DNA from: Candidatus Rifleibacteriota bacterium
Lineage (GTDB): Bacteria > Muiribacteriota > Ozemobacteria > Ozemobacterales > Ozemobacteraceae
Direction of reading: 5' to 3'
DNA length: 40,698 nucleotides
Assembly (NCBI GenBank): GCA_012517355.1
Contig: JAAYVD010000143.1
Coordinates: forward strand, 1 to 40,698
The notes under the pieces were generated by a model. The model ran no database searches and had not been told where the DNA came from. It saw nothing but the letters and a program-made list of their open reading frames with translations. A program made the position numbers and the translations under genes. Positions within the stretch are counted from its first letter, which is position 1. The number at the start of each line of letters is the position of its first letter. This document shows, piece after piece, positions 354 to 29,323 of the stretch.

Positions 354-480
354 CGAGCGATTGAGCGGAGTTGGCCACGCGGTGCGTGGTTTGCGGAATC
401 AACGTGCGCCCAGCATGGCCGATTCCCCTCATCGCTGGCCTGGGGTGGAGAAACCACCTCACCGAGGAAAGGATGGGCTT

Positions 481-1758: not shown

Positions 1759-2234
1759 CCACCCATTTCGGGGCCGGGATGATTCCCTGGCGGCAGGCGC
1801 CCTCGGCATACACCAGGCTGACCGCCTTCCTGGCCCCCGCAGACCCCTCCCGGCCACCCCTCCCTTCGGCCGCCGCTGACCTCGAACCCGCGCTGCTGGG
1901 CCTTCTTCTTGGCGACTGGTCCTCCTGGCGTCGGATTCTCCAGCGCCTCACCCCTGAGGATTTCACCGACTCCCGACACCGCCTGATCTTTCAGGCGGTC
2001 AAAACCCGCTTTGGGAAGGGCCGTAGCGGCATCCCAGCGCCATTTGTCCTTTCAGGCGATTGGCGCGACCTCTGGGGTTCTCCTGAGGAAATGGCTGCCG
2101 TTGGTGGAGAGGAATATCTACGGGAGCTGTCCCAGGTGAACCCGTTGTCCAATAGCGACCGGTTCGTCGATCGGCTCATCCGCGACCTGCAGGCCTTGCG
2201 AAAGGACCGGCCAAACAAGGGGGCAGAGAAATGA
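1755..2234 (+). CDS. Stand-alone DnaB N-terminal-domain-like protein
   Basis: A 159-residue protein whose residues ~38-155 follow the pattern of the DnaB helicase N-terminal domain. It has a hydrophobic LLGLLLGD helix, LTPEDFTDSRHRLIFQAV (DnaB: L.PEDFYDPRHR.IFEAI), a later GGEEYLREL, and a closing arginine-rich helix. The RecA-type helicase domain is absent. In DnaB this domain forms the trimer-of-dimers collar and binds primase and loaders. A free copy could be an adaptor or inhibitor acting on a replicative helicase; that role is inference. The start overlaps the upstream stop as ATGA, and its own stop overlaps the next start in the same way, so three genes are coupled. Confidence 0.75.
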   Translation: MTTHFGAGMIPWRQAPSAYTRLTAFLAPADPSRPPLPSAAADLEPALLGLLLGDWSSWRRILQRLTPEDFTDSRHRLIFQAVKTRFGKGRSGIPAPFVLSGDWRDLWGSPEEMAAVGGEEYLRELSQVNPLSNSDRFVDRLIRDLQALRKDRPNKGAEK

Positions 2235-2995
2235 GAGGGGAAAAGGCATTGACGGCAGTGGGCCGAACCATGACCCCGGGGGCTGCCATGGCCTTGCATC
2301 GCTATGACATCGCCGCCTGCGAGGGTTTTCTCATCCCTGACGTGTTTCGCAGCCTACTCTCGCAGGCCGCGACCGTTACCTGGTATGCCTGGGTTCTTGG
2401 CGGGGGGAAAGACGCGAAGGACCTCTTTGCCGGATATGACGGCTCCAATGTCGGGGGCGGGGTCATCTGGGGTGTCGCCTCGGCAAGCCGTCGCGAATCC
2501 TCGTCGCGCTTGTTCTATCAGGGCCTGGGAGCCCTGGGGGACCGCCTCCCCGAGGAAACCCGAGATGCCATGTCTCTCATTTTGGAAGAAGACTTCCCGG
2601 ATGGCTATGTGGTCTTGAACGCCATTCTGTACCCGCGGCAAGAGCGTCGTTCGCCTCTCCCCCCCCGACCCGAGCACTTGGAGCCTTTCCTGGTTGCCCT
2701 GCGCCTGACCGACCCAAAGGCTGGGCCCGAGATTGCCTCGAATCTGAAACCGGAGGATTTCCACGATTCCCGCCTACGCCACGCCTATGAACGGCTTTCC
2801 AGGGAAGGACCGGGTGCGGTCCCACGGCCTCGAGGGGTGATTCACAAGGCTGGAGAAAAGGCGGAAGATCAGGATTTCCTCAAGGCTCTCCGCTCTTTGG
2901 CCCCTCCAAGTGTTTCGCCGCACATTCTGAAGCGGGCCATCCGCGATCTGAAAGCCTGTCATCGGATCCCCGCCGGGAAGAACCGCGTGAAGTGA
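2231..2995 (+). CDS. Second DnaB-N-like protein with an extra N-terminal region
   Basis: A 254-residue protein, coupled by ATGA overlap to the preceding gene. Residues ~148-190 repeat the DnaB-N signature seen in its neighbour: EHLEPFLVALRL, then NLKPEDFHDSRLRHAYERL. The C-terminus ends with RAIRDLKACHR, equivalent to the neighbour's RLIRDLQALRK. Residues 1-140 include a Gly-rich stretch and an acidic LILEEDFPDGYVVLN segment and match no family I know. No P-loop is present. It is probably a diverged duplicate of the upstream gene with an added domain, and the pair may form a hetero-oligomer with the 481 P-loop protein. Confidence 0.7.
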   Translation: MRGEKALTAVGRTMTPGAAMALHRYDIAACEGFLIPDVFRSLLSQAATVTWYAWVLGGGKDAKDLFAGYDGSNVGGGVIWGVASASRRESSSRLFYQGLGALGDRLPEETRDAMSLILEEDFPDGYVVLNAILYPRQERRSPLPPRPEHLEPFLVALRLTDPKAGPEIASNLKPEDFHDSRLRHAYERLSREGPGAVPRPRGVIHKAGEKAEDQDFLKALRSLAPPSVSPHILKRAIRDLKACHRIPAGKNRVK

Positions 2996-3094
2996 GCCGA
3001 CGGGGGTTATCCCCGCACGAGGACCGCCTTGGGAAAAGGGCTCCCTTTGTGTCTGTCGAAGGGATCGCCCCTGGTTGCGAGGGGGGGGACAAGG

Positions 3095-3733
3095 ATGAAG
3101 AACTCAGGTTCCCAGAAAGGCTTGGCTCCTTTCGTGATGGCCACCCCGGGGCGGAGAATGTGGAGCCTGGGGTTCCGGCCAGAGGCTGACGACCAGCGAA
3201 ATGGAAGGTGGGCCGACAGCGGCACGGATGCCGCGTTTGGGCTGACCCTTACTGGACAGGGGAGCCCGGTGGGCGGGCCTCCACGTGAACCTCCGCCGAA
3301 ACCTGCGCCACAGCCCCTCCCCATGCCCGGTCGAGGGATACCCCGCGCGAGAACCCGCCTGGAGATTCAGCTGCTCCGCCGGCATCTGGGACACCTGACC
3401 AGCCTGCGGCAGGTGTTGAGGAGGGCGCCCCGGTGCCTTGTCTGCCTTGATTCCATTTTGGAGCGGATCCACTGCTGTCTGGGCTTCTCACTACCCTGCG
3501 ATGTCATGGCCCTGGCACCCAACCCAGGCACTGAAGCCACTGGCCTCGATCTCAACGAGGTCATGAGGCAATTCAACCGGCATATCCGGGCGGTCGCCCA
3601 GGCGGTGATCGAACCATGGTTGCAAGCCGCCATGGCCGCCGACTACTGCCGGATCCTGGAGGTGTTCTGGGAATCGGGCATCTGGGTTTCCATGGATCGG
3701 GAACCGGGGGCAAGGGGTGATCACCGACCCTGA
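3095..3733 (+). CDS. Unrecognised protein, about 212 residues
   Basis: An open frame in which the ATG at 3095 follows a GGGGGGGACAAGG purine run acting as ribosome binding site; an in-frame ATG at 3029 would add 22 residues. The first ~90 residues are Gly/Pro-rich and low complexity. The rest looks helical and globular (RTRLEIQLLRRHLGHLTSLRQ, LNEVMRQFNRHIRAVAQAVI). Cys residues cluster in RCLVCLDSILERIHCCLG. No family recognised. The next gene begins 28 bases downstream, so both may share a transcript. Confidence 0.5.
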   Translation: MKNSGSQKGLAPFVMATPGRRMWSLGFRPEADDQRNGRWADSGTDAAFGLTLTGQGSPVGGPPREPPPKPAPQPLPMPGRGIPRARTRLEIQLLRRHLGHLTSLRQVLRRAPRCLVCLDSILERIHCCLGFSLPCDVMALAPNPGTEATGLDLNEVMRQFNRHIRAVAQAVIEPWLQAAMAADYCRILEVFWESGIWVSMDREPGARGDHRP

Positions 3734-3761
3734 ATCGGTTCCACGAAGGAGGTTCTCATCG

Positions 3762-4397
3762 ATGATTCCAATCCTCGATCGCCTTCCCGTCATGCGCAGA
3801 AACTCCTATCAAGCACTCCTTTACCTTCCGCCAATGGAGATCAAATTCTTGGTGGAATCGCGTTTTGGAAAATGCTTTTTTTCAAATGATGAAGATTCCC
3901 TTCCCAAGAAGACCGCCAAGGCCTCGATAAACCGGATTTACGAATACATTGGCATGAAACCCGATCAGAGGTTTACCTCCTTTGTGCTTTGTAATGAAGA
4001 GTTTTCTTCCAATGCATGCGAGGTATTCGGCAGCATTGTTTTGGTCCTAAAAAAGAAGAGAATTGCTCAGGATTCATACTTCTTTAACGGAGATGTGAAA
4101 AACCTGGCCTATAGATTGGTTGGAGGTTTTCCGATCTCAAAGGTCGTCAAGCCAAGAAAGTTGACTGCCCCTGCGGGTCAAATCCTGGCATTGGCCAGGG
4201 AGTGCGTCCGCAAAACCCGTTCATATCCCTCTTCCCCTGACGATGAAAGGCCGTTTCCGTATAGAGTGGGATTGTATTTTGAAATCAGGATGTTTCGGGC
4301 TGTTGTCCCTGAAGACATCAAGCAGATTGTGGTTCCCAAAGGTCTGGCTGATCGTGAACTCAAATTGATCGAGAAATTGGCCTGGCATGGGAAATAG
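3762..4397 (+). CDS. Unrecognised AT-rich gene, 211 residues
   Basis: The ATG at 3762 follows a strong AAGGAGG at 3746-3752. A GTG at 3717 in frame is less likely. Base composition and codon use are clearly more AT-rich than the surrounding genes (many AAA, AAT, TTT and GAT codons), suggesting recent acquisition. The protein is mixed alpha/beta and basic, with ACEVFGSIVLVLKKKRI and a later KVVKPRKLT segment. No signal peptide, membrane helix or catalytic motif that I can name. It is probably intact, because the frame is clean and the start is good. Confidence 0.65.
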   Translation: MIPILDRLPVMRRNSYQALLYLPPMEIKFLVESRFGKCFFSNDEDSLPKKTAKASINRIYEYIGMKPDQRFTSFVLCNEEFSSNACEVFGSIVLVLKKKRIAQDSYFFNGDVKNLAYRLVGGFPISKVVKPRKLTAPAGQILALARECVRKTRSYPSSPDDERPFPYRVGLYFEIRMFRAVVPEDIKQIVVPKGLADRELKLIEKLAWHGK

Positions 4398-4551
4398 TAC
4401 CCGTTCCGTCTTGTGGTGGGGAATCGGGAACACGGGTTAAACAGGTTCGAAAAAAAAATCCTGTTTTCGTAAAAAAACGCTGGGGCAAAAGACAATATAC
4501 AAGGGAAGGCCAAAACTGGAAAAACAGGCGCAACGACGAAAGGAGCAAGTC
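4398..4551. terminator. Intergenic gap with a weak hairpin (4439-4466)
   Basis: AAACAGG at 4439-4445 can pair with CCTGTTT at 4460-4466 around an A-rich 14-base loop. Only four T follow, so this is at best a poor intrinsic terminator. The rest of the gap is A-rich and ends in the AAGGAG of the next gene. Confidence 0.22.
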
Positions 4552-4806
4552 ATGTCGAACTGTCGGTACTGCGGGTCGCTGTCGTTCGGGGCCAATTGCC
4601 CCTTCAGCCCCAACCAGAAACACGAACACCATCAGGATGGTTCCCGGTGCGTGTACTGCGGGAGTTCATCCTACGGCCACAGTTGCCCGCACAGTCCTGA
4701 CGGCAAGCACCGCCATGGTTCCGACGACGAACACTGCGTCTGGTGTGGGTCCGGCTCGGTCGGCAGCGGGTGTCCCCACGCCCCGGGCCGTCGCCACGAA
4801 CGGTAA
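4552..4806 (+). CDS. Small Cys/His protein built of three tandem zinc-finger-like repeats
   Basis: An 84-residue protein made almost entirely of three repeats of about 28 residues. Each has the pattern C-x2-C-G-S-x-S-x-G-x2-C-P-x-[SA]-P-x3-H-x-[HR]: CRYCGSLSFGANCPFSP, CVYCGSSSYGHSCPHSP and CVWCGSGSVGSGCPHAP. Three cysteines plus a His per repeat could bind one zinc each. The family's role is unknown to me; a nucleic-acid or protein-binding metal module is the simplest inference. AAAGGAG lies 9 bases before the ATG. It starts a same-strand series of small genes running to 7620. Confidence 0.75.
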   Translation: MSNCRYCGSLSFGANCPFSPNQKHEHHQDGSRCVYCGSSSYGHSCPHSPDGKHRHGSDDEHCVWCGSGSVGSGCPHAPGRRHER

Positions 4807-4823
4807 GGCCAAGGGGGGCGACG

Positions 4824-5312
4824 ATGACGGGACGGCGGATGAGGGCCAGGAACCCACGCGATAGCAACCGGATCGAGACGAACGGGTTTTCCAACCCCGA
4901 TACGGAGGCTGAGTACCAAAAGGGCAGTGCTGCCTTGCGTTCGCGGCGGGGGGATTGCTGGGGCTGCTCCTTCTATGCCCCGCTCTATGATCACGTGGGG
5001 CTCTGTTGCTGCCGCAAGTCGCGTCATTACCTCGAGACGGTTTTCGAGCTGTTTGTTTGCAAGGACCTCGTTGCGGAGAACTGGGGCTCGCACAGTTTCT
5101 GGGACAACCCCACCGCCCACTTCTACCAGCCCGACCTCGTGAATCATTTCATTGCCCTGTATCAAATGCTTGCCAGGTCGGAAGAGCTCCTCGGTCGTGA
5201 AGACAGGCAAGAAGTCAAAGCAGCCCGGAACTACCTGCTCGCATTGAAAAAAGCCTGGGAAGAAAGTCCTTCCCCTTTCAAGGACCGTTTCCTGTTCGAC
5301 CAGGTCCCCTGA
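4824..5312 (+). CDS. Cys-rich conserved-type protein, first of a tandem pair
   Basis: A 162-residue protein with CWGCSFYAPLYDHVGLCCCRKS, then HYLETVFELFVC, where four or more cysteines could hold a metal or Fe-S site. A helical C-terminal half follows. It is paralogous to the next gene along its whole length: SNPDTEAEY versus SNPDTDAVY, CSFYA in both, ETVFE.F.C in both. The ATG at 4824 has AAGGGGGG upstream. The ATG at 4839 aligns exactly with the paralogue's first residue, so either start is possible. Function unknown. Confidence 0.7.
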   Translation: MTGRRMRARNPRDSNRIETNGFSNPDTEAEYQKGSAALRSRRGDCWGCSFYAPLYDHVGLCCCRKSRHYLETVFELFVCKDLVAENWGSHSFWDNPTAHFYQPDLVNHFIALYQMLARSEELLGREDRQEVKAARNYLLALKKAWEESPSPFKDRFLFDQVP

Positions 5313-5349
5313 GGACTGGTCGCTCCACCCGCCTGGCCAGGAGGCTCTC

Positions 5350-5826
5350 ATGAGTTGGCGAAACCCGAAGGACCGGAATGTTGTCGAGACCGAAAAGTTT
5401 TCCAACCCCGACACCGACGCTGTGTACCGACAGGGGAACCCTCGGATGAGGGATCGAATGTGGGACTGCCTGTGCTGCTCGTTCTATGCCGCGCTCAACG
5501 AGGACTTCGGGGTCTGTTGTTTCCCGAAATCCCAGTATCACCTGGAGACGGTGTTCGAGCATTTCGTCTGTGATGACATCGTGTATGAAAGCTCATCGGA
5601 GCACAGTTTCACCGAAGACCGCGCGCGGCACTTTTCCCATGAGGGCCTGATGGCCCGCCTCATCGGTCTTTATCAGATCCTCGCCCGCTCCCGGGCCAGC
5701 CTCCGGCGGGAAGATCTCCAGGCCTTCCTGGCGGCGGAAGCGTGCCTGCTCGGCCGGAAACGGGCGTGGGAAGAGGATAACCCGACATACGGTGGGCGCC
5801 ATCCCATGTTCGGCAGATTGCGGTAG
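5350..5826 (+). CDS. Cys-rich conserved-type protein, second of a tandem pair
   Basis: A 158-residue protein with CLCCSFYAALNEDFGVCCFP, then HLETVFEHFVCDDIVY and a helical tail (LIGLYQILARSR) that mirrors LYQMLARSEELL in its upstream twin. The conserved CxxCSFYA...G.CC...ETVFE.F.C frame suggests metal binding. CCAGGAGG lies 5 bases before the ATG. The pair is 37 bases apart and looks like an old duplication, since identity is mostly confined to the cysteine core. Function unknown. Confidence 0.7.
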   Translation: MSWRNPKDRNVVETEKFSNPDTDAVYRQGNPRMRDRMWDCLCCSFYAALNEDFGVCCFPKSQYHLETVFEHFVCDDIVYESSSEHSFTEDRARHFSHEGLMARLIGLYQILARSRASLRREDLQAFLAAEACLLGRKRAWEEDNPTYGGRHPMFGRLR

Positions 5827-5837
5827 GGAGGGAAGCC

Positions 5838-6872
5838 ATGTTTCGAAAAGTCGAACTGCCTGCAGGGGTCGCCGGCGAGCTTTTCCTGTGTGGCATGCCG
5901 GGGCGGGGCCATCCCCTGGATACGTTTCTGGCAGAAGTGCGGGCGAAGGCGGTCACCAAGATCGTCTGCCTGGTTTCCCCGACCGAGGTCTCCGATTCCA
6001 GTCCGGCGTATGCCAAGGCCCTGGTCACGGGTTCCCTGCCCTGCCCGGTGGTCTCCTTTCCCATCATCGGGTGGGGTGTGCCCGGCGACCGTGAGGCGTT
6101 TGTCGCCCTGATCGATGACCTGGCCTGTGGCCTGGAGCGAGGGGAGCATCTCTTGGTCCACTGCCTGGTAGGCCGCGGTCGTACGGCGCTCGTCGCGATC
6201 TGTCTCCTGATCCGCCTCGGTGTTCTCTACGCGGAGGCGGTCGCGCTCGTGGCCATCGCCGGCTCGGAAACCGAGTCACCCCAGCAGGTTCAGCTGGTCG
6301 AGTGGTATGCCGGCCAGCGCTCCCAGATGACCGGCCCATGGGGGAACGCCGGCAGTTCTTTTCAGGGGCGGGCCAGCCTGGATGAGGGAACCGCCATGGC
6401 TGGCCGGACGGACGAGAAGGCGCTGTTGGATGGGATCCAGCGGCGCATCCGGGAGATCCAGGAGAAGCGGGCGGAATACCGGGACATCACCATCGTCATC
6501 GGCTCGGAGCAGCCGCCCAGGCAGCCTCACGTCGGCATCTGGTGGCTCCACCAGGGCACCGTTCTCCAGGTATCGGTCGAGGCCGAGGCCTGCACCGACC
6601 CGACCGACCCGCAGTGCGTCGAAGTCGAGCACATCCATACCTGGCCCATCCTGCAAAAACAGCTATCTGCCAGCTTTTCGGAGTTTCTTTCCCTGGGCTA
6701 CCAGGACGTTCCCCGGGGAAGGGTCTGGTATCACCGCGGTTTCCGTCTGTATTCGATCACCTGCAGCCCCATCGTCAAAGCCGACGGGAAAGCGCTTCAG
6801 GCCATCGCCCGGGCGTTCGGAATCCAACAAGCCCGATACAGTGTCGTGGTCGACCCGCAGTATCCCCGGTAA
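5838..6872 (+). CDS. Dual-specificity phosphatase-like domain fused to an unassigned C-terminal domain
   Basis: A 344-residue protein. Residues ~1-165 form a cysteine-phosphatase-like domain with the P-loop HCLVGRGRT (Cys109, Arg115; HCx5R[ST]). The usual PIxDxxVP loop that supplies the general-acid Asp reads PIIGWGVPGD, so the Asp is replaced by Gly; Asp84 five residues later is the only nearby acid. A linker of ~30 residues leads to a C-terminal domain (residues ~210-344). It contains HVGIWWLHQGT, HIHTWPILQKQ and YQDVPRGRVWYHRGFRLY and resembles small stand-alone uncharacterised proteins. An in-frame ATG at 6396 could allow internal initiation of that domain. AGGGAGGG precedes the ATG. Phosphatase activity is uncertain because of the missing acid. 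Confidence 0.72.
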   Translation: MFRKVELPAGVAGELFLCGMPGRGHPLDTFLAEVRAKAVTKIVCLVSPTEVSDSSPAYAKALVTGSLPCPVVSFPIIGWGVPGDREAFVALIDDLACGLERGEHLLVHCLVGRGRTALVAICLLIRLGVLYAEAVALVAIAGSETESPQQVQLVEWYAGQRSQMTGPWGNAGSSFQGRASLDEGTAMAGRTDEKALLDGIQRRIREIQEKRAEYRDITIVIGSEQPPRQPHVGIWWLHQGTVLQVSVEAEACTDPTDPQCVEVEHIHTWPILQKQLSASFSEFLSLGYQDVPRGRVWYHRGFRLYSITCSPIVKADGKALQAIARAFGIQQARYSVVVDPQYPR

Positions 6873-6929
6873 AGGGAAGGGCTTACTGGACCTGGCGGTG
6901 CCGGTTTCATTTGAGGGGGGGGGAGAAAC

Positions 6930-7133
6930 ATGAGAATCGCCGAGTTGATGCTGGTTGGTGCCGGGTCCTCGCTCGGGATTTCGTTTCCCTGGTGGATGTG
7001 GGGCCTGGCGGTTTTCGACATCCTGCTGCGGATTGCGGACGACCACCGCGAATGGCAAAGGGCGCGCCAGGGCCGGATGGCAGTCGACGGGCCGGCGGCC
7101 GGATCCGGGGGCCACGGCGGGAAACAGGAATAG
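6930..7133 (+). CDS. Small single-pass membrane protein
   Basis: A 67-residue protein with a hydrophobic segment at residues ~6-33 (MLVGAGSSLGISFPWWMWGL then AVFDILL), followed by a charged DDHREWQRARQ stretch and a Gly-rich tail. A GAGGGGGGGGGAGAAAC purine run is the ribosome binding site. It lies between the phosphatase fusion and the broken gene in the same direction. No family recognised; it could anchor a partner at the membrane. Confidence 0.55.
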   Translation: MRIAELMLVGAGSSLGISFPWWMWGLAVFDILLRIADDHREWQRARQGRMAVDGPAAGSGGHGGKQE

Positions 7134-7144
7134 GAGGGAAGGCC

Positions 7145-7620
7145 ATGAGCGATGCTGCATTGCGTCGTAACATCACGGAACTCGTCCAGGAGCTATTGCA
7201 CAATCTCCAGGCACAACTTCCTGCCTTGATCGAGCTCTGGAAGAGTGAAAACCAGGGGGGGGGTGGTCGTCTGAAGACCTGATCTACCGCTTCTACAATG
7301 GGTCATTCAAGGCCTACCGCCTCCAAGGGAAAACCCGGACCATCGTCGAGGCCCTGCGACCCCTGATCCCCAAGGGTCTGGCGTTCAACCAGAGGTTCGA
7401 GGAGATCGTGGCTCCGGGAATCGGGGACAAGAAGTGGGAGATGGCGCACAACGAGAACTGGAGTTTTCACACCCGACCATTCGTCGATGCCTACTTCCAT
7501 GCCCAGTTCTTTCTGGCCATGGCGGTCAAATACGGCCGGAAATACCGGTGGCGGAAGCGGGTCCCGAACGTCATCCCCTGCGGGTGGGGCGCCCTGATGT
7601 GCCTCGTCGGAATCTGGTAG
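7145..7620 (+). pseudogene. Conserved-type gene split by a frameshift at nine G (7255-7263)
   Basis: The ATG at 7145 follows AGGAGGGAAGGCC and opens a frame (LIELWKSENQ) that runs through nine consecutive G and stops at 7280-7282. In the -1 frame, reading continues directly as WSSEDLIYRFYNGSFKAYRL, then GLAFNQRFEEIV, NENWSFHTRPFVDAYFHAQF and a C-terminal IPCGWGALMCL, to the stop at 7618-7620. The two halves together make one protein of about 158 residues. It resembles a family of uncharacterised bacterial proteins I recall with the patterns DLIYRFYxxSFKVY and RPIxEAFFHAxxFLEMxxxYGR. One extra G, or a -1 slip on the G run, restores the whole frame. It may be a sequencing error, a phase-variable switch, programmed frameshifting or decay. 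Confidence 0.75.
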
Positions 7621-7857
7621 CGCCTCCCCCTCGGCCGGGGTTGCGCCCGACCCACCCAATCTGGCCGCCCTGGTGGGGGCCTCAGCTTGCGTTGAATGGC
7701 GCGGCAGTGAGTGGTCGTTGCGAAAGATGAAAAAATCGGGCGGTCTGCTTACAACATACGAGTGGAAGGGGAATCGAAGGCAAACCCACCGCACGTGGAA
7801 AGGGTCCGATTCGCAGTCATCCGGGGAACAAGACCCGTGGAAAAGGGAGGAAATGCC

Positions 7858-10248
7858 GTGGCAGAGTCGAGCGATGAAAACAACCAATTCCTGGCCGATG
7901 CCCGCGCCATTTTGAACGGGGCTTTTCCCAAGGGGGAAGGCTTGGTGCCCGGCAGCGTTTCGACCATAGCCCTCGATCCAGGGCTCTCCTGGTTGGAACT
8001 ACGTTTTGTACAACGACTCCTCGAGCGGTTGACCCCACCCAACGGCCGGAACCTGGTCCACGAGATTCTTTCGTTGGGGGGATTTTCCACTCCGGGGGAA
8101 TGGCAGAACAAGATGACCGCCACCCTCCGGTCACTCCGACGTTCCTATCAAGGGTCCAGGTTTCAGGATCTTTTCGAACCGCCTTTCCATATTGCCAACC
8201 TTGCCAAGGCCTTCGAAGAGGAGGAAACGCGGATCACCACGCGGGCGCTGCCTGTCATCCGGCAGGCATTCGAAACACAGATCGCCCGCACCTCTCCGCA
8301 CGGCAGGCCCCCCGATTCCCCCTTCCTCACGCGCCTGGCCCATCTGGTGGAAACCTTCCGGCTGGCCCCCATCGAAACCGAGATCCTGTCCCTGGCCATG
8401 TTGTACTTCTCTCAGAAATCGTTCAGCGAGATCATGGATGCCGTGCCCCATGCCTCGAGACGGGGGAGGTGTGGCCTGCTCGAGCGCTTCGTCCGGTTCA
8501 GTTCCTTTCCCTACCCCATGGTGCTCAACGCGGTGCGCCAGGACGGGACCCTCCGGCGGCTCGGTTTTCTCGAGTCCGACTTCGAGCCGGATTCCGACAT
8601 CTTCGAGTTTCTCTACGGCGTCCGGAGCGAACCCCTGAGCGACCGGTATTTCTTTGCCTGGAAAGGGGCGGTGCTTCCGCTCGATCGCCTCATGATCGCG
8701 CCGGCCGATGTCGAAACCATCAGGTCCGTTCTCGCGAACCGGCAACCAGGGGAAGGGGTCAATTTCCTGCTGGGTGGACCCCCGGGAACCGGGAAGACCG
8801 AAACGGTGCGTTCGCTTGCCCGCGAACTCGGCCTGGTTCTGTATGAGGTCCGGGCCAGCAGCTCCGACAACGACGAGAATGGAAGCGAGGGCCTGATCCG
8901 CATGCGCGGGGTGTGGGCCTGCCAGAATCTCGTGGGCCAGGGGGAGAGTGCCGCCATTTTGATCGACGAGGCCGATGACCTTCTGGGGGGCAGGGGGGGG
9001 CGGCTGCCCTTCGGGTTGCTGATGGGCGGAGGTGGAGCCGTCGGCAAGGCCCTGCTCAATGAAACCCTCGACCGGACCGTCTGCGTGCAGTTCTGGATCG
9101 CCAACCACCTCGAGAACATCGACCCCTCCACCCGGCGCCGGTTTGCCTTCGCCATCCGGTATGATCGCGCCACGGCCGCCGACCGCCAATCGATCTGGAC
9201 CACCGCCTGCGAGCGATACGACCTGACCGGCGTGGTCCCTCCCGAAGCCCAGAGGCGTCTGGCCGGCGTCTACGCGATCGATGCGGGCGGGATCGACTCC
9301 GCCCTGCGCAATATCGCCCATCTGCAGGGGTTGGGCTGGGGCCGCGACCGAATCCTCACCCAGTTGGAACGCTTGCTCGAGGCCCAGGGCAGGTTCGCGC
9401 CGGGCGGAAAAGAGCCGCCCCCCATCGACCTTCGCCCGGAAATCCTCGTCGAGCCAGGCGCTCTGACCATCGAACCCGCGGCCGACCTGGGCACCGTCCT
9501 CGAGATCATCGGCGACCGGTCACGGCCACAGGGGCCTGGCCAGGGTTGCGGGCAGCGGAAGGGGGGCGCGGCCGGCCCCTCCTTTTCCCTGCTCCTGTAT
9601 GGGCCGCCCGGAACGGGCAAGACCCATCTGGCCAGGTATCTGGCCTTTCGACTCGGCCGGCCCATCCACCACAGGACGGCGGCGACGATCCTGGACAAGT
9701 TTGTCGGGGGAACCGAGGAGAACATCCGCCGCGCGTTCCGGGAAGCGGAGCGCGAGGGGGCCGTGCTGTTCTTCGACGAGATCGACGGCCTGTTGCAGAC
9801 CCGGGAACGGGCCAGCCGGTCCTGGGAAGTCACCCAGGTCAACGAGTTGTTGTCGGCGCTGGAGAGCTTCCAGGGGTTGTTCGTGGCTGCCACCAACCAT
9901 GAGGCCATCCTCGACACCGCGGCGCTCCGCCGCTTCCACTTCCAGCTTCGGTTCGGGCCCCTGGGGCCGGCGGGGGTTCTCACCTTCTATCGCACTCTCC
10001 TGCTCCCGATGGCCGAAGGGCCCTTCGGGCGCAGGTCGCGGGCGAATCTGGGCGCCCTCCACGGTCTCGTGCCCGGGGACTTCGCCGCCCTCCGCGACCG
10101 CCTCATCCTGCAAGGCAAGGGCCGCGTTCCCCACGACCAGCTCATCGCAGCGCTGGAGGCGCGGCGTGATGCGCGGCGGGGCCGGCCATCCCCCGGCATC
10201 GGGTTCCTGGCTCCCGACCGGACCACCGGGGCCACCCAGCCAGGCTGA
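7858..10248 (+). CDS. Double-AAA+ ATPase, copy 1
   Basis: A 796-residue cytosolic protein. The N-terminal helical region (~1-290) is shared with the next gene. AAA-1 has GGPPGTGKTE (Lys313) and ILIDEADDLL (Asp370, Glu371). AAA-2 has YGPPGTGKTH (Lys588), LFFDEIDGLL (Asp640, Glu641), then a sensor ATNHEAI and an arginine-rich ALRRF segment. Both ATPase sites look intact. The C-terminal FHFQLRFGPLG matches a bacterial Cdc48-like family with two AAA modules, where partners and substrates are mostly unknown. GTG 7858 was preferred because AGGGAGG sits just upstream; a GTG at 7711 lacks a site. It is followed 47 bases later by its paralogue, and both probably work as a hetero-assembly. Confidence 0.88.
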   Translation: MAESSDENNQFLADARAILNGAFPKGEGLVPGSVSTIALDPGLSWLELRFVQRLLERLTPPNGRNLVHEILSLGGFSTPGEWQNKMTATLRSLRRSYQGSRFQDLFEPPFHIANLAKAFEEEETRITTRALPVIRQAFETQIARTSPHGRPPDSPFLTRLAHLVETFRLAPIETEILSLAMLYFSQKSFSEIMDAVPHASRRGRCGLLERFVRFSSFPYPMVLNAVRQDGTLRRLGFLESDFEPDSDIFEFLYGVRSEPLSDRYFFAWKGAVLPLDRLMIAPADVETIRSVLANRQPGEGVNFLLGGPPGTGKTETVRSLARELGLVLYEVRASSSDNDENGSEGLIRMRGVWACQNLVGQGESAAILIDEADDLLGGRGGRLPFGLLMGGGGAVGKALLNETLDRTVCVQFWIANHLENIDPSTRRRFAFAIRYDRATAADRQSIWTTACERYDLTGVVPPEAQRRLAGVYAIDAGGIDSALRNIAHLQGLGWGRDRILTQLERLLEAQGRFAPGGKEPPPIDLRPEILVEPGALTIEPAADLGTVLEIIGDRSRPQGPGQGCGQRKGGAAGPSFSLLLYGPPGTGKTHLARYLAFRLGRPIHHRTAATILDKFVGGTEENIRRAFREAEREGAVLFFDEIDGLLQTRERASRSWEVTQVNELLSALESFQGLFVAATNHEAILDTAALRRFHFQLRFGPLGPAGVLTFYRTLLLPMAEGPFGRRSRANLGALHGLVPGDFAALRDRLILQGKGRVPHDQLIAALEARRDARRGRPSPGIGFLAPDRTTGATQPG

Positions 10249-10295
10249 AGGCGGCCTTTGCTCACCTCATGGCAGAAACGGAAGGAGGACGAATC

Positions 10296-12737
10296 ATGCG
10301 CGGATCGCGACCACCGGCGAACCCCCACCCGGATCCGACCACCAGGACGGGGGAAGTGGGGGGGGCGCCTCAGCCAAGCGGGCGCCAGGGAGAACGCACC
10401 TCTGCGGACCCCGCCGCGGCTTCTTTCGATTCCAGCTCTGACCCGGGCTTCCGCTGGTTGATCCTGCAATCCCTGCGGATCTGCCTTGGGAAGGTGTCTC
10501 CCCCCTATTCGCCCCGGTTGCCTGGCGGTGTCTTCAACATTCTGGGTTTTCGTCGGGCCGGGCCGTTGAACGCCAAGGTGAAAAAGCTGCTCCATTCCCT
10601 CCCCATCGATCCGAAAGACAGACGCTACAGAACACTCTTCCAGCCGCCATTGCAGGCGGATGATTTCATCAACGCCTTCCTGAGCGGGGACCGGGCCATC
10701 GTCGAACCGATCATGGCTCTGTGGCAGGAAACCGTCGATGCCCAGATCGCAGCCATCGCTCCTGGTGGCAAGCCCCCGGTCTCCCCTTTCCTCGACCGCC
10801 TGGAAACAACTGCCAGCTTGTTCCGGTTGACGCCCGTCGAGCGGGATTCCCTGGCCCTTCTGCTTTTGCAGGTGCTTTTCAAGGATTTCCAATCCCTGGT
10901 CAACGCCATGCCCGGGGGGTGGTCACGACGGATGTGGGGGAACGGCAATGAGCTCGTCTGGTTTTCCCCTCATTCCGAGATGTCGATCATGCAAGCTCTC
11001 GGCCGGTCCGGGCCTTTGCACAGGCTCGGCCTCTGCCAGAGGGACCATGAACTGGCCGGCGAGGTGGTTCAATTCCTGTCGGGTTTGGGTCCGGGACCGC
11101 TCAGCCGACGGTATTTCGACACCTGGTCGGGGAAGGTACTCCCCCTGGCCTGCCTTCCCCTCGCCGAAGGCGATCTTCTGACCATTCGGTCGCTGCTGGC
11201 CAACCGCCGTCCGGACCAGGCGGTCAACATCCTGTTCGGCGGCCCGCCGGGCACCGGCAAGACGGAAACCGTCCGGGCCCTGGCGGCGGACGCCGGCCAC
11301 CCTCTCTATGAAGTCGGGGCCCGTCGGGATGACACCGATGGCTGCCGCGTCTCCCTGTTTCGGGTGCGGGCCATCTGGGCCTGCCAGGCCATCGCGGAAA
11401 CCACCGGCGCCTTCATGCTGGTCGATGAGGCGGATGACCTGCTCGATGCGGGTCGGCCGGGCCGCCTCGGGACGGCCCTGGTGCCGGAGTTGCTCGAACG
11501 AGGCCAAGGCGTTCGGTTCTGGGTTGCCAACCGGCTCGAAGACCTCGACCCCGGCACCCGTCGCCGGTTCGATTTCGCCGTCCGGTTTGAGCGGGCCACC
11601 TTGACCGGGCGTCAGGCCATCTGGGAGAACTGCCGCCAACGGTATGACCTGACCGCCATCATCGGGCCTGAGGACGTTCTGAGGTTGGCGGAGAAGCCGG
11701 GGATCGAGGCCGGCGAGATCGATGCGGCCCTTCGTCATGTGGCCGGTCTTCGCAGGAAGGGATGGACCCGCGCGCGTATCCTGGCCCAGGTCGAACGGTT
11801 GGTCGAGGCCCGGGACCGGTTCGCGGGAAAGGGCGTGGGTTCTTTCCCCAAGCCGGGCCTCTCGGGGGCGACCCTTGCCATCGATTCGTTGAACATCGAG
11901 CCGGCCGAAGATCTGGCAGCTGTCCTGGGCATCGTGGACTCCTGGCGCGAAGGGTGGGTGGGGCTATCCCGCCCCGGATGCATGGAGCGGGCCCGCGAGA
12001 CTTCGCCGGAGGGCAAGCCATTCGGCGAGCGCTTGCCCCCACCGGGTTTGCGCATCCTGCTGGAGGGCCCCCCCGGCACGGGCAAGACGCATTTTGCCGC
12101 GTCTCTGGCTGGTCGTCTCGGCCGACCTCTTCATCACAAGACCGTCACTTCCCTGGTGAGCCGGTGGGTGGGCGAGACCGAAGCCTCGATCAGAGAGGCC
12201 TTCCGAACCGCGGAGGATGAGGGGGCGGTTCTGTTCCTCGACGAGATCGATGGCCTGTTGGCCAGCCGGGAATCCGCCGGGGGGGCCTGGGAGGTGACCC
12301 GGGTGAATGAAATGCTTTCCGCCCTGGAGGCGTTTCCGGGGGTGTTCGTCGCGGCGACGAACCGTGAGGCAGTCCTTGTCACCGCCGCCTTGCGGCGGTT
12401 CACCTTCCGTCTGCGGTTTGGCCCCCTGGGGCCGGCGGCGATGTTCGCCTTCTATCAGGCCCTGCTGCTGCCGTTCGGCGAAGGGCCATTCGGGGAGCGC
12501 GAGGCCAAGGCGCTCCGGGCCATGGCCGGTCTGGTTCCCGGCGACTTCGCCGGCCTGCACCGTTGCCTGGCCTTGCGACCGGGAGGCCGCCTCCGGCATG
12601 CCGAGCTGATCCTGAAGCTGGGCGGGCGGCGAGATGCCCGTCGCGGCGGGCCCCGACCTGCCATCGGCTTCCGGCCTGCCGCGGCGGGGGCGCTTCCCGC
12701 AAGGCGTGGGCGTGATACGGATTGCCGGAGTCCGTGA
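10296..12737 (+). CDS. Double-AAA+ ATPase, copy 2
   Basis: An 813-residue paralogue of the preceding gene. It has a Pro/Gly-rich N-terminal tail, the shared helical region, AAA-1 with GGPPGTGKTE (Lys322) and MLVDEADDLL (Asp377), and AAA-2 with EGPPGTGKTH (Lys597), LFLDEIDGLL (Asp649), ATNREAV and FTFRLRFGPLG. Motif residues are complete in both ATPase modules. The ATG at 10296 follows a strong GAAGGAGGAC; an ATG at 10269 would add nine residues and has no site. Between the two paralogues the AAA-2 modules and the FRLAP/FRLTP helical patch are best conserved, while the extreme N-termini differ. The likely role is ATP-driven remodelling of a protein or complex, substrate unknown. Confidence 0.88.
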   Translation: MRGSRPPANPHPDPTTRTGEVGGAPQPSGRQGERTSADPAAASFDSSSDPGFRWLILQSLRICLGKVSPPYSPRLPGGVFNILGFRRAGPLNAKVKKLLHSLPIDPKDRRYRTLFQPPLQADDFINAFLSGDRAIVEPIMALWQETVDAQIAAIAPGGKPPVSPFLDRLETTASLFRLTPVERDSLALLLLQVLFKDFQSLVNAMPGGWSRRMWGNGNELVWFSPHSEMSIMQALGRSGPLHRLGLCQRDHELAGEVVQFLSGLGPGPLSRRYFDTWSGKVLPLACLPLAEGDLLTIRSLLANRRPDQAVNILFGGPPGTGKTETVRALAADAGHPLYEVGARRDDTDGCRVSLFRVRAIWACQAIAETTGAFMLVDEADDLLDAGRPGRLGTALVPELLERGQGVRFWVANRLEDLDPGTRRRFDFAVRFERATLTGRQAIWENCRQRYDLTAIIGPEDVLRLAEKPGIEAGEIDAALRHVAGLRRKGWTRARILAQVERLVEARDRFAGKGVGSFPKPGLSGATLAIDSLNIEPAEDLAAVLGIVDSWREGWVGLSRPGCMERARETSPEGKPFGERLPPPGLRILLEGPPGTGKTHFAASLAGRLGRPLHHKTVTSLVSRWVGETEASIREAFRTAEDEGAVLFLDEIDGLLASRESAGGAWEVTRVNEMLSALEAFPGVFVAATNREAVLVTAALRRFTFRLRFGPLGPAAMFAFYQALLLPFGEGPFGEREAKALRAMAGLVPGDFAGLHRCLALRPGGRLRHAELILKLGGRRDARRGGPRPAIGFRPAAAGALPARRGRDTDCRSP

Positions 12738-12840
12738 GGCCCGGGCCGTTGCCGCGGGTGGTGTTGCGGCCATCGGATTCCGACCCCCGTTTTCTGGTCT
12801 GACTCAACCGGCATGTTTGTCGTGAAAGGAGCCCAAACGC

Positions 12841-13704
12841 ATGGAAAGACCCTGGCTGTTCATTCTCGAGGATTCGGAGGAGCGGGCGGCGGCGATGACT
12901 CGCCTGCTGTTGGATGCTTACGGCCCAGAGGCCTTTCGGATTTTCCCGACCGCCCGGGAAGGCATCGCCTGGCTGGAAGAGAACTTCGCCGGGCTGGAGG
13001 TGATCTCCCTCGACCACGATCTGGGTGAACCCGGCCCGGGAAAGCCGCGCGAAGACGGGATGCAGGTGGTCCAGTGGCTGGTGGAGGTGGCCCCACCGAT
13101 CGCGCGGATCATCATCCATTCGGCCAACCCGCCCGCGGCAGCGGCGATGGCCAAGCGCCTGGAGTGGGCGGACTTCTTCGTCAAGCAGGTCTTTCCGGAT
13201 TTCACCGTGGCCGGGCCTGACAACCCTTGGTTGCGGCTGGTCGAGGAGTTCCGTGCCAAGCAACGCTGGGAACTTCGCGGACTCACCGAGCCCCCGAGAC
13301 CACCGATGAATCCACGGGATGTCGGCGAAACCCCGCCGAAGGGCGGGCCGATCGACCATCGGACGATCGACGTGGGGGCCACGATCCGGGAGGTCATGTC
13401 GGACCCCTACGCGGTGCATGTCATCACGATGGCCATGGCGGACGAGTCGGCCGGAGTGCCGTTGCGCCCCCCACCCCTGGATGAAGGCCTGGACCTGATG
13501 GCCTGGGGGTGCGAGGGGCAGGAGGAGATGGATATCCGACTCACCCCGGAAGACGCCCCGCCAGAGGGCCTCGCCACGTTCGTCCGGCTTCCCGAAGAGG
13601 CGCAACAGGCCATTCTGCGTCGCGCCTCGTATCTCTACCTCCGGCACTTCCAGTTCAAAGGCCGAAACTGGCTGCGCCTGCGATTCAAACCATCGGTGGA
13701 TTAA
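12841..13704 (+). CDS. Receiver-like protein of the cyclic-phosphate-processing (cREC) type with an unassigned C-terminus
   Basis: A 287-residue protein. Residues 1-125 carry the receiver-fold features typical of the cREC group: acidic FILEDSEE (Glu10, Asp11), ISLDHDLG (Asp58, Asp60), DGMQVVQWL and IIIHSANP. The Ser-Leu-Asp-His-Asp-Leu-Gly and His-Ser-Ala-Asn signatures separate this group from ordinary response regulators. The group has been linked in published comparative genomics to prokaryotic conflict systems. Residues ~150-287 are a separate domain (START-less, no known motif) ending in RNWLRLRFKP. AAAGGAG lies 8 bases before the ATG. It follows the two AAA+ genes by about 100 bases on the same strand and may report or process a signal for them; that is inference. 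Confidence 0.75.
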   Translation: MERPWLFILEDSEERAAAMTRLLLDAYGPEAFRIFPTAREGIAWLEENFAGLEVISLDHDLGEPGPGKPREDGMQVVQWLVEVAPPIARIIIHSANPPAAAAMAKRLEWADFFVKQVFPDFTVAGPDNPWLRLVEEFRAKQRWELRGLTEPPRPPMNPRDVGETPPKGGPIDHRTIDVGATIREVMSDPYAVHVITMAMADESAGVPLRPPPLDEGLDLMAWGCEGQEEMDIRLTPEDAPPEGLATFVRLPEEAQQAILRRASYLYLRHFQFKGRNWLRLRFKPSVD

Positions 13705-14837: not shown

Positions 14838-17800
14838 ATGGCCCTGTTGGTGCAGAATGCCGCCCGGCTTGACAGCCTGGTTGGGCTGCTCGAGAAAGCG
14901 GTCAGGGAGATTCTACCTGGCCGGGATCTCCTGGCCCCGCTCCGGGTGCTGGTGCCTCATTCGCTGGTCGGCGCCTGGCTGCAGCTGGCGCTGGTGAATG
15001 CCTTCGGGGGACGCCTCGAGGTGGCCCCGGTCGATCCCGAGCGGGGGCTCTGGGACTGCCTGCCGCCCCACGACGGCACAGCCCTGCCCCCCCTGACTGC
15101 CGGCGACACCCGCGATCTCATCCTCGGACTGCTCCTTGGCCCCGATGCCGAGGCCAGATCCTCCCTTGGCCCGTTGTGGGAATACCTGGCAGCGGGGGGA
15201 ACTGCCGCCGGGGCGCTGGTAAGCCTCTTGGATGGCGAAGAGAAGCCTTTCGGGCGAGGAAAGGAAACCCCGGGGCCGAGGGAGGGGAGCCTCGGGCACG
15301 GGGAAGAAAAGCCTCTGAGACGGCCGAGGGAAGACTTGGGGCCGGCGGCGGAAAGCCTCGGGGACGAGGAAGAAAAGCCTCTGAGACGGTCGAGGGAAGA
15401 CTCGGGGCCGGCGGCGGGAAACCTCGGGGGCGGGGACGAATTGCCTCGGGGCCGGCCGAGGGGAGCCTCTGGGTCGAAGCAGGGAAGCTTCAGGGACGGC
15501 GACGATGCCGATCCGTCGAACTGGCGGCGGGCCTGGCAGCTGGCGGACACCCTGGCCCGTCTCTTCCACGAGTATGAATCCCTGCTTCCCCTCGGGGACG
15601 GCGAAGAACCCGGAATCCTCCCCCTGCCTTCGTTGGCGGCCGCCCATCCCCACCACGCCTGGCAAACGACCTTGTACAACCAGTTGTTTCGTGCCGGCGG
15701 CTGGCGTGACCGGCTGCTGCCGGGACGTTTCACCCTTCGCCAGGCGGCCCTCCGGTCCTCCGCCTCCCCGGCCTCGATCCGCGCCGCCGGCCCCGAGGTC
15801 TGGGCCTTCGGCTTCACTGCCATCCGGCCGCTCCTGGGTGATGTCCTGGCCCGGTTGGGCCAGCACCGGGATGCCCGCCTGTTCCTGCTGACCCCGGGCT
15901 CCCATCGGGCCCCCGGCCCCGCGCAGCCCGGAGGCGCCCTTCCGGCCGGCCTGTGGAATGCCGCGGCCCAGTCCACCATCCGGGATCTGCTCGCCCGCAC
16001 GGGTGGCCCGTCCCCCCAGGTCGTCTGGAAGAACCCGCGGGGCCGCCGGCCCCACCGCGCGGACGACTCCTTCCTGCACGCGGCCCAGAACGCCCTGGCC
16101 GGGGATCCCCCGTCCACCCGCCGCCCGCAGGACCCCACCTTGCAGATTCGCTCCTGCCCAGGCCCCCGGCCCGAGGTCGACCTGGTGGCCAGGCTCCTGC
16201 TCGACCGGTTGGCCCAGGGCCCCTGCCCGTTCAATGACATCGGTTTCCTCGTCACCGATCCCGCGCGCCAGGTCCCCGGCCTGGCCGAAGCCTGCCAACG
16301 GCTCGGCATCCCCTTCCAGGTCGTGGGGGGGCCCTCCGGCAGCAGCGGCAGTTACGGGCCGGCGGTCACCGCCCTGTTCGACCTGGCCGCGGAGGGATTC
16401 TCGCGCCGGGCCGTTTTCGAGGTCCTCCACAACCCTTGCTGGCAGGCCGCCGCCGGGGCGACCCCCGACATGGTGCGGGCCTGGCTCGGGTGGGCCCAGA
16501 CCCTCGGCATCTTCCACGGCTTCGACCGGGACGAGAAAAGCCGCCTGTGCCGGCGGGAACAGGACGGCCCCTGCGACGCCTGCCGCACCCCGACCGCCGG
16601 GGAAGCCGGGTTCGCCCCCACCGACCGCCATACCTGGCGGCAAGCCCTGCGCCGGCTCCGGCTCGGTCGCCTGATGGAGATGCGGCCCTGGCAGCCGGCC
16701 GACCCCCTGGCTGCGGTGTTCGCCGGGTGCGTTCCCTACACGGACCAGGTAGCCACCGACGAGCCGTGCCTGACCTCGTTCTCCGTCGGCCTGGAAACCC
16801 TGGCCGCCCAGGTCGCCCGTCTGGCTGATCGGCCGCCCGAAGGTTCGCCCTGCCCGCTCCCCCGATCGCCGGGCTCGCGCCGGTCGTGCCTCGAGTGGAG
16901 CGGGATCCTGGCCGAAGCCTTCGATGCCCTGCTGCGGCCCCGGCCCGACCAGGCCGGGGAAATCCTCCAGCGCAGCGCCGTCTTCGGCGCCCTCGACCAC
17001 CTGCGGGCCCTCGACCCCTTCTTCCCGGACGGCCTTCCCTTCGGCCTGGTCCGGGAGTTCGTGCTGGGGGCGGCGGCCTCCGGGAACCAAGGGAACCCGG
17101 GCGGCCGGCCCTTCTTCGCGGGGGTGACCATCGCCCCGCTGGCCGCGGCGGCGGCCATCCCGTTCGCCGAAACCGTCATCGTCGGCCTCGGAGAGGAACA
17201 GTTCCCTGGAACCACGGGCTGGTCGAGCCTGGACCTGCTGGCCGGCCGCCCCGGCCACCCGCCCGGCCACCCCTTCCAACCCGCCGACCTGCATCGGCTG
17301 GCTTTTCTGACCGCCCTGCAGGCGGCACGGGAGCGGCTCGTGCTGACCTTCAGCCACCTCGACCCGGCGCGGGAGGCGGAGGCCAACCCCGCCGTCGCCC
17401 TCATCCAGTTCCGGGAGTTCCTCGAGGGCCGCGTCCTGCCCGCTGGGAGCCTCTTCCAGGTGGCCGACAGCCGACGGGAACCAGGCTTGGATAGGCCCTT
17501 TCCCTGCCCGGGCCCGGCCGACCGGCACGAGTGGCTGGTCCGGCAGGTGTTGCGGCGGCGTTTCGTGCCGCCCGACGCCACGACGGCGGACCGGATCGAC
17601 CGGGCGCTGGCCGATTTCCAGCGCGGGGGGCTGGATCCTCGCGCGCTCGCCCCCTCCCCCGGCCAACCGGGGAAAGAGGGGCTGCGGATGGGCGTCCGGC
17701 ACCTGGCCGCCTTCCTGCGCGATCCGGCCTCGGCCTTCATCGACTGGCTGGTGCGCGCTTCCGACGACGACGCCGACGAGGAGACCGCCGACCGCCGGGG

Positions 17801-27128: not shown

Positions 27129-28058
27129 CTACTTCTTCGGCTTGGCCGGGGTGGGGGGCGCGTAGCGCTCGGCGGCCTCGCGCAGGATGTCCCGGATCTC
27201 GACGGCCAGCCAGGCGGGCTCCAGCACCTTCACCGAGAAACCGTACATGAGGATGCGTTGCTGGAGCTCGAAGTTGGGGATGACCTCCAGCTCGATGACG
27301 CACTCCTCCTTGTCCTCCCGGAGGATGCGCTGGGAGGCGTGCAGGGGCTGGGACTTCAGATAGACGGCCTGGTCCTGGTCGAAGGCCAGGACGATGCGCT
27401 CGGGGTCCTCGTCGGAATGGTAGACGCCGATGGTTTTGTCGAAGATCGCGGCGGGGTTGGTGCCGGCGGGAATGGTGAAGCGTTCCCGCAGCACTTTCAG
27501 GTCCGACATGCGGTCCAGGCCGTAGGAATAGAGTTTCTCGCCGGGTTCGAAGGCGCTGACCAGATACCAGCGGCCCAGGTATTCCCGCAGCAGCAGAGGG
27601 GCGACCTTCACCTCGCGGGGCTTGTCCTTGAGGAAGCCGCGGTGGGTAAAGGTGACCCAGGCCTTGGTGCGGATGGCGGTCAGCAGCCGGGGGATGAACT
27701 CCTGTCCCGCGAGGGTGCCCGAGGTGCCGAACGACAGGCAGGCCAGGGCCGCCTTCCCCGCCGAGACGCTTTCGAAGAGCATCTGGCCCAGGCAGGTGAG
27801 CTCGAGGAACCGCAGGAAATGGTTGGGGTTCACGGTGTTCGCTTCGTCGATGTAGTAGCCGTTCGTGGCGCGGTCCCAGGTGATGCCGATCCCGAAGGTG
27901 TCGCGCAGGGCCTCGAGGTCGCGTTGGATGGTCCGGACCGAACTGTCGATGCGGCTGTTCCTCAGAAACTGCGCGATGGTCTCGAGCGAGGGGAACCGGT
28001 CCCCGAGAATTTTCGTGAGAATCAACGAGTAGCGTCGAAACACCTGCGGTCCGGCCAT
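27129..28058 (-). CDS. WYL-domain transcriptional regulator, copy 1
   Basis: A 309-residue protein with an N-terminal helix-turn-helix region (SVRTIQRDLEALRDTFGI), a central WYL domain (REYLGRWYLVSAFEP with KLYSYGLDRM) and a C-terminal WCX-type extension (NFELQQRILMYGFSVKVLEP). WYL regulators bind DNA and often a ligand through the WYL domain, and several control defence loci. ATG 28058 was chosen because GGGAGGG lies 9 bases upstream; an ATG at 28106 would add 16 residues. A TATACT lies about 34 bases upstream of the start. It is paralogous to the next upstream gene. Confidence 0.9.
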   Translation of the reverse strand: MAGPQVFRRYSLILTKILGDRFPSLETIAQFLRNSRIDSSVRTIQRDLEALRDTFGIGITWDRATNGYYIDEANTVNPNHFLRFLELTCLGQMLFESVSAGKAALACLSFGTSGTLAGQEFIPRLLTAIRTKAWVTFTHRGFLKDKPREVKVAPLLLREYLGRWYLVSAFEPGEKLYSYGLDRMSDLKVLRERFTIPAGTNPAAIFDKTIGVYHSDEDPERIVLAFDQDQAVYLKSQPLHASQRILREDKEECVIELEVIPNFELQQRILMYGFSVKVLEPAWLAVEIRDILREAAERYAPPTPAKPKK

Positions 28059-29207: not shown

Positions 29208-29323
29208 GGCTTCCGCTCCTTTCGAGCCGGGGGCAACACGGCACATCCGCCCGGATGGCCCGAGCCGTGGCCGGCCTGGCGGCGGCCATGGGCTTTTCCC
29301 CATCGGAACTCTCTCTCGACCAT

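Follow-up and report, generated by a model that had tools for sequence, protein, structure and literature searches.

Within the window (the whole 40,698-nucleotide stretch of DNA that was analysed), we found a cassette of about 13 small and large genes, all on the plus strand and centred on two p97-like motors. Closely packed plus-strand open reading frames (ORFs) span 361-13704, and GC3 of the coding type was seen over 4552-13704, which bore out the claim of a first-pass annotation that ten tightly ordered, same-strand genes lie between 4552 and 13704. Most of its domain calls also held, namely the Cys-repeat protein (4552), the Cys-rich pair (4824, 5350), the phosphatase fusion (5838), the double-AAA+ ATPases (7711, 10269), the cREC protein (12841) and a membrane peptide. 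Its start at 4552 did not stand, and it had missed one gene (7144-7620): the cassette extends upstream to at least 481, adding an SRP-GTPase-like protein, two DnaB-N proteins and the 3029 and 3717 proteins, because relatives of 481-1758, 1755, 2231 and 3717 sit in the same clusters of related genomes.

The first upstream gene (481-1758, +; the ATG at 481 is the presumed start inside ORF 361-1758) encodes an SRP54/FlhF-type NTPase-like protein whose P-loop is kept and whose later G motifs are, as judged by eye, degenerate. Its relative on contig C132 of genome G003 (L133:3187-5043; 31% identity over 417 aa, 5e-55) carries both SRP54 (1e-6) and DnaB-N (2e-8) domains, such that a DnaB-N domain of the type encoded by 1755-2234 (+; DnaB helicase N-terminal domain without the helicase core, Pfam DnaB 2e-11) is there fused behind the SRP-like domain, in one protein rather than the window's separate genes. 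The protein of 2231-2995 (+) joins the C-terminal domain of 481-1758 to a DnaB-N-like domain (33% over 214 aa to L133:1671-2405). At 3029-3733 (+), the C-terminal half of the product matches L018:7101-7520 (32% over 142 aa, 8e-9), which adjoins another double-AAA+ gene in G000:C81, and the 3717-4397 (+) protein shows 29-36% identity to proteins of G004:C339 and G003:C132 (3e-25 and 3e-36, respectively), its family being conserved in clusters of two other genera.

Next come three Cys-rich proteins. The product of 4552-4806 (+), which is probably zinc-binding, consists of three CxxCGSxSxGxxCPxSPxxxHxH repeats with His as well as Cys; it is 58% identical to a G014:C161 protein and 51% to one of G003:C132, and relatives lie beside double-AAA+ genes in loci L053 (6e-27) and L048 (2e-13). 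The products of 4824-5312 (+) and 5350-5826 (+) are paralogs with 49% identity, and no relative of 4824 was found elsewhere; no fold assignment was obtained for the two paralogs, nor for 3029 and 3717.

The 5838-6872 (+) gene encodes an R-P/DSP phosphatase fusion, with the phosphatase at about residues 1-165 and another domain at about 200-344. The N-terminal part matches dual-specificity/R-P phosphatases weakly, at the cut-off (Pfam CDKN3, 3.5e-4), with an intact HCX5R motif and 42% identity to a G003:C132 protein. The C-terminal domain (35% to G014:C161, 55% to G003:C116) has no Pfam assignment, its predicted model is unusable (pLDDT 47, the alignment being too shallow), and its family overlaps a double-AAA+ gene in Desulfuromusa (L067). 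The small protein of 6930-7133 (+) has one likely membrane segment, in keeping with the membrane peptide of the first-pass annotation, and is 51% identical over 47 aa to L013:9442-9720 of G014:C161.

The overlooked 7144-7620 (+) is a single gene of a family ("7408") conserved in relatives (45% over 114 aa to L133:15944-16447), with its frame broken at a run of nine G at 7255-7263; over 7255-7596, homologs from G003 and G014 match a different frame from that of the gene's start. This run may reflect phase variation, decay or an assembly error, and because the gene is frameshifted, both it and the cassette copy here may be decaying or misassembled. A second run of nine G lies at 6915-6923. Phase variation at such tracts found no statistical backing, with 3 G/C runs of at least nine against 1.2 expected under a second-order Markov model (not significant).

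At the downstream end, 12841-13704 (+) encodes a cREC receiver-like domain (PF20274, 3e-16; 60.2 bits against a gathering score of 27) with its conserved acidic residues, followed by a C-terminal domain. The receiver part is 50% identical to a G003:C132 protein and the C-terminal part 45% to one of G004:C339, and in G014:C146 a cREC and a 7408 domain form one polypeptide (L128:9738-10631). The window's cassette itself yielded no enzyme that consumes NAD or ADP-ribose.

The genes recC, recB and recD that follow (14838-25088; recC and recB by scan, recD read from its ORF) lie outside the cassette, and the GC of 1-14.8 kb is below theirs. Within the same genus, about 5 kb of contig precedes the G001 copy of recB, and G002 gives weak matches only, so that no empty site could be read. 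Between the helicase and nuclease parts of RecB (18772-22593) lies a long repetitive segment, over 100 residues in length, that is rich in Gly, Pro and Ala. Farther on, 25160-26443 (-) is a possible degenerate DnaB_C-like gene (hhalign 82%, E 1e-5 to the relatives' DnaB_C proteins) with a DnaB-like core in which Walker A is not conserved, followed by two WYL regulators, 27129-28106 (-; Pfam WYL 7e-9, WCX 2e-12) and 28302-29303 (-; 60% identical to a subfamily member beside the double-AAA+ gene of G000:C136). The WYL genes lie 13-16 kb downstream of the cassette, past recBCD, and the membership of all three genes is uncertain; together with a long SNF2 helicase (30253-34593) they adjoin one another and possibly form a second conflict-type cluster. 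At the window's edge, a fused nitronate-monooxygenase-like and ketoacyl synthase protein (37095-40698, running off the end) perhaps belongs to polyunsaturated-fatty-acid synthesis.

The double-AAA+ motor

The two large ATPase genes, 7711-10248 (+; true start probably downstream) and 10269-12737 (+), are paralogs (46%) with two Pfam AAA domains each (5e-38, 1e-35). The best solved relatives of this motor (hereafter dAAA) by sequence are VAT, Cdc48 and p97 (1e-54), and its predicted model (pLDDT 82.7) matches their fold over about 540-600 aligned columns. Across 55 dAAA sequences there is little or no variation at the Walker A, Walker B, sensor and arginine-finger positions. The motor has four intact ATPase sites, and F, Y or W occupies the usual D2 pore-loop place in the host-family copies. 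The motor thus shows the tandem pair of classical AAA modules, with ATPase motifs intact, that is a feature of the Cdc48/p97 family, whose double rings hold a key place in eukaryotic and archaeal protein quality control. It appears to be of the Cdc48/p97-like double-ring type, and it is spread over many phyla.

The N-terminal region is predicted to be helical and of its own type; matches to Cdc48/p97 cover the D1-D2 part only, and a Cdc48-type N-domain is absent by both sequence and fold comparison. The motor scores 71 bits against the CDC48 NCBIfam cut-off of 802.65. Among defence models the second AAA domain scores best with IetA (2e-38), and the AAA proteins reach 124.8 bits against the IetA equivalog cut-off of 510. 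Membership of either IetAS or the Cdc48 family proper was rejected on these scores.

The dAAA family is widespread and usually single, with relatives in Pseudomonadota, Campylobacterota, Nitrospirota, Fibrobacterota, Lentisphaerota, Kiritimatiellota, Myxococcota and Thermodesulfobacteriota. In a tree of 92 dAAA proteins (built by a quick method with a midpoint root), all nine host-family copies fall in one clade (SH-aLRT 99), within which the copies with cREC, Cys-repeat or phosphatase partners form one subclade (99) across four genera. The pair from G000:C136 and G003:C142 stands apart from this subclade and has FtsZ-like partners instead.

Partners of the motor in related and distant bacteria

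Among 40 genomes of the phylum, full-length dAAA matches occurred in four (G000, G003, G004 and G014), each of a different genus. The Cys-repeat family of 4552 was found in exactly the same four (in G004 as a weak match with a stop codon), and cREC above its cut-off in the same four plus one more, with the co-occurring families largely on common contigs. The coincidence of dAAA and Cys-repeat has a chance of 1 in 91,390 if presence is independent and the genomes unrelated, a figure that kinship makes a rough guide. Two further genomes from the genus of G000 (G001, G002) and one from that of G014 (G007) have no dAAA, Cys-repeat or cREC.

A single contig, G003:C132, carries relatives of no fewer than nine cassette genes: dAAA, two cREC, two R-P phosphatases, Cys-repeat, 3717, two 7408-family copies, the SRP54/DnaB-N fusion and a 2231 relative, along with DnaB_C, MoxR, DUF2201 vWA and PcfJ-like proteins and a short one whose likeness to FtsZ is confined to the FtsZ C-terminal domain. 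It also encodes a divergent S-adenosylmethionine synthetase and a PPDK/PEP-utiliser protein (L133:6632-7717, L015:798-2525), possible look-alikes of core enzymes. G004:C339 carries two dAAA, two cREC, 3717, the 12841 C-terminal domain and a DnaB-N fusion, and G014:C161 carries dAAA, Cys-repeat, the 6930 and 7408 families, the 5838 C-terminal domain, DnaB_C and an FtsZ-like protein. R-P phosphatases, cREC, Cys-repeat and other families recur in four genera as a patchy, reshuffled set whose order and content vary from cluster to cluster; several clusters have few of the families, and the dAAA copies of G000:C136, G003:C142 and G000:C81 have no cREC or Cys-repeat nearby.

For more distant bacteria, we counted neighbours within 10 kb of 65 named dAAA loci: WYL in 37, DUF2779 in 9, RtcR-like or sigma-54 activators in 6, Sir2 and ADP-ribosylglycohydrolase in 5 each, R-P phosphatase in 4, FtsZ-like and Cys-repeat in 2 each, and the 5838 C-terminal domain in 1. 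Not one of these neighbour types lay near any of 15 non-dAAA control loci. The MoxR profile was unspecific, matching other AAA proteins and one control locus, and was left out of these counts. These 65 loci had been picked by similarity, so a sample of 300 genomes was added from Burkholderiales, the order that includes Rhodoferax; 27 of them (9%) carried dAAA. Of the 31 loci examined there, WYL lay near 10, DUF2779 near 8 and an FtsZ-like gene within 320 bp in 3 (two being near-identical copies in one genome), while cREC, R-P phosphatase and Cys-repeat neighbours were found at none.

Across both sets (65 named and 31 Burkholderiales loci), cREC was never found beside the motor outside the host's family, and phosphatase and Cys-repeat associations there are few. 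The pieces that do cross phyla are the Cys-repeat family beside dAAA in Rhodoferax and Rhodanobacteraceae, the 5838 C-terminal domain in Desulfuromusa, and R-P phosphatases in Rhodobacterales relatives, Campylobacteraceae and a Sphaerotilus plasmid. The last reads WYL, dAAA, Sir2, MavL macrodomain, R-P phosphatase, two further genes, MoxR and DUF2201, beside BREX-2 genes; the Rhodobacterales locus reads dAAA, WYL, a fusion of R-P phosphatase and ADP-ribosylglycohydrolase, PDDEXK and UvrD. On a Rhodoferax antarcticus plasmid we observed a macrodomain, FtsZ-like, dAAA, DUF2779 and WYL. From these named-locus, Burkholderiales and plasmid neighbours, adjacency of dAAA to ADP-ribose chemistry is recurrent and not universal. 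Genome-level presence of the phosphatase was uninformative, as PTP-SAK occurred in 9 of 14 control genomes as well as in 24 of 50 with dAAA; we therefore counted local adjacency alone and dropped the R-P phosphatase as a general dAAA partner.

Genes for dAAA occur on 16 plasmids. We also observed relatives on viral contigs of 345-561 kb (L147, L152, L155, L157, L159, L160), which may be counter-defence or the viruses' own machinery. RtcR-like or other sigma-54 activators were seen near dAAA in L013, L015, L032, L034, L038, L053, L069 and L087, and the true RtcR sensor domain in L069 (5e-81) suggests regulation by RNA-end signals in some loci.

Host-family FtsZ-like proteins lack the GGGTGTG loop, having LGCEVAT, LDGSASP or LGSTIST instead; the loop is kept in those of Rhodoferax L048 and plasmid L178, and the host's ordinary FtsZ is encoded elsewhere. 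Two short proteins that resemble the FtsZ C-terminal domain only (L015:4331-4699 and L130:10127-10468; hhalign E 6e-5), each in a cREC cluster, might bind or cap FtsZ. One FtsZ-like protein 317 bp from dAAA (L227:543-1757, in G221:C26) is extended at its N-terminus by a segment that looks, on visual inspection, like the FtsK gamma DNA-binding domain.

The first-pass annotation had proposed that recurrent clustering of the AAA+ genes with 12841-, 5838- and 4824-type genes across distant genera would support a system. Within the host's family the expected recurrence is seen, with dAAA, Cys-repeat and (plus one genome) cREC in the same four of 40 genomes, of four genera; farther afield the picture is mixed, with WYL, DUF2779 and FtsZ-like recurring and cREC, R-P phosphatase and Cys-repeat absent from the 31 Burkholderiales loci. 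Gene content differs in every cluster, and we discarded a fixed ten-gene system. Because recurrence in the host's family is accompanied by mixed distant partners, some crossing phyla, the module idea appears partly supported, as a functional neighbourhood on one conserved motor with swappable partners.

Known systems and alternative explanations

No scanned cassette protein resembles a named defence family strongly over its full length: in PADLOC-DB 2023 the AAA proteins gave partial matches only, and 5838 and 12841, among the proteins scanned, gave none. The ADP-ribosylglycohydrolase/R-P/WYL immune systems (Iyer et al. 2022, PMC9503650) are alike in placing R-P phosphatase, WYL, vWA, nucleases and helicases around a variable core; genes of this type are present in dAAA loci L056, L066, L074 and L082, and an R-P superfamily phosphatase with its catalytic Cys is present in 5838. 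However, the text of that paper names no AAA+ or AAA ATPase, and the window's cassette adds cREC, Cys-repeat and DnaB-N/SRP-like proteins and has no ADP-ribosylglycohydrolase among its scanned proteins (one adjoins dAAA in L056 and G003:C142). Described cREC systems share the domain with the conserved acidic residues seen in 12841, but place it beside NAD-processing enzymes and RNA ligases, with hydrolysis of cyclic phosphates as a prediction (PMC7824862); here cREC goes with a double-AAA+ motor, and the domains fused to it or lying next to it have no assignment. The likeness to IetAS lies in the IetA match, but IetA models span 262-395 positions and match one AAA core, far under the NCBIfam cut-off, and Pfam detected no protease domain (IetS) among cassette proteins. 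Cdc48/p97/VAT share two AAA domains, D1-D2 order, fold and an aromatic D2 pore-loop residue, whereas this motor is bacterial, with another N-terminal region and scores below the family cut-off. MoxR-vWA ternary and related conflict systems (PMC7159879) likewise include dead cell-division enzymes, and G003:C132 has MoxR and DUF2201/vWA genes, but the window is without that pair and its motor is classical AAA.

Since the defining features of IetAS, the Cdc48 family and the ADP-ribosylglycohydrolase systems were looked for and fell short, we treat the cassette as standing outside the named systems and as a lineage-specific form of known conflict-system kinds. Within open-access papers and PADLOC-DB 2023 we met no named system with this set, in line with the first-pass statement, and the family of dAAA loci is apparently undescribed.

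We weighed three other accounts. The double ring could belong to a cellular remodelling or checkpoint module that disassembles or quality-controls division and replication assemblies, rather than to defence: an FtsZ-like gene is the closest partner in several unrelated dAAA lineages, lies directly upstream in Rhodoferax and within 320 bp in three Burkholderiales loci, some FtsZ-like proteins have intact GTP-binding loops, and DnaB-type and SRP-type domains recur in the clusters. Patchiness within genera, fast divergence, plasmid carriage and WYL, Sir2, PDDEXK and BREX neighbours suit conflict systems better, and we consider this account unlikely. We regard as similarly improbable that the cassette is a remnant or cargo of a large plasmid- or jumbo-phage-like element whose replication, partition and counter-defence genes have been misread as a system. 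DnaB, MoxR/vWA, S-adenosylmethionine synthetase, PcfJ-like and FtsZ-like genes in related clusters, the motors on large viral contigs and plasmids, and the GC drop before recBCD all favour it; yet no capsid, tail, terminase or conjugation genes were found among the scanned cassette and fetched-cluster proteins, ten scanned proteins have no structural PHROG match, and the window runs on into recBCD. A phage origin was further weakened by a search of 50,697 phage records, in which AAA gave a single partial match and cREC 12841 none.

That there is no functional unit at all, and that these are unrelated accessory genes whose common families reflect the gene pool of this bacterial family, is an account we give little credence. 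The variable order and content, the clusters with few families and the dAAA copies C136, C142 and C81 without nearby cREC and Cys-repeat speak for it, but the cREC, Cys and phosphatase partners track one dAAA subclade over four genera, and same-strand packing, the cREC-7408 fusion and the cross-phylum repeats of dAAA with Cys-repeat and 5838 C-terminal families speak against it.

A candidate conflict system and its proposed mechanism

Our preferred reading, to which we assign a rough probability of 0.45, is that the cassette is a lineage-specific, expanded member of a conflict (probably anti-phage) locus family with a Cdc48/p97-like double-ring AAA+ motor at its core. Because this motor is found again with several of its partners in distant bacteria, beside known defence genes, the cassette is probably an immune-type system that has been elaborated locally and is as yet undescribed; on the best reading the system would touch ADP-ribose or cyclic-phosphate chemistry. 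In the proposed mechanism, the two dAAA paralogs would assemble into a single double ring and draw proteins that have been captured or chemically modified through its D2 pore. The R-P phosphatase and cREC would strip targets or signals of phosphate monoesters and cyclic phosphates of ADP-ribose or nucleotides, phosphate and cyclic-phosphate removal in ADP-ribose or RNA-end chemistry having been predicted for both families (PMC9503650, PMC7824862). The Cys-repeat and small partners would act as zinc-bound adaptors or substrate-delivery factors. The SRP-GTPase-like and DnaB-N proteins, joined in sister clusters by pseudo-FtsZ and DnaB_C, would serve as baits through their likeness to host machines targeted by phages. 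A decoy role has been proposed for inactive cell-division enzymes in other conflict systems (PMC7159879), and by analogy the pseudoenzymes described here may be read in the same way. We are least sure of the bait and chemistry steps.

A bolder possibility, which we hold to be doubtful, is a new immune class in which a p97-like unfoldase, look-alike baits of host machines (pseudo-FtsZ, DnaB-N, SRP-GTPase-like) and erasers of ADP-ribose or cyclic phosphates work together either to seize and dismantle phage proteins or to rescue host proteins that have been modified.

The four genera and several reshuffled clusters of the host's family show partner swapping around one motor. Under the preferred conflict-locus reading, this widespread bacterial relative of Cdc48/p97, for which the defence library we tested has no system model, would link p97-type unfolding to bacterial conflict and offer a testable family.
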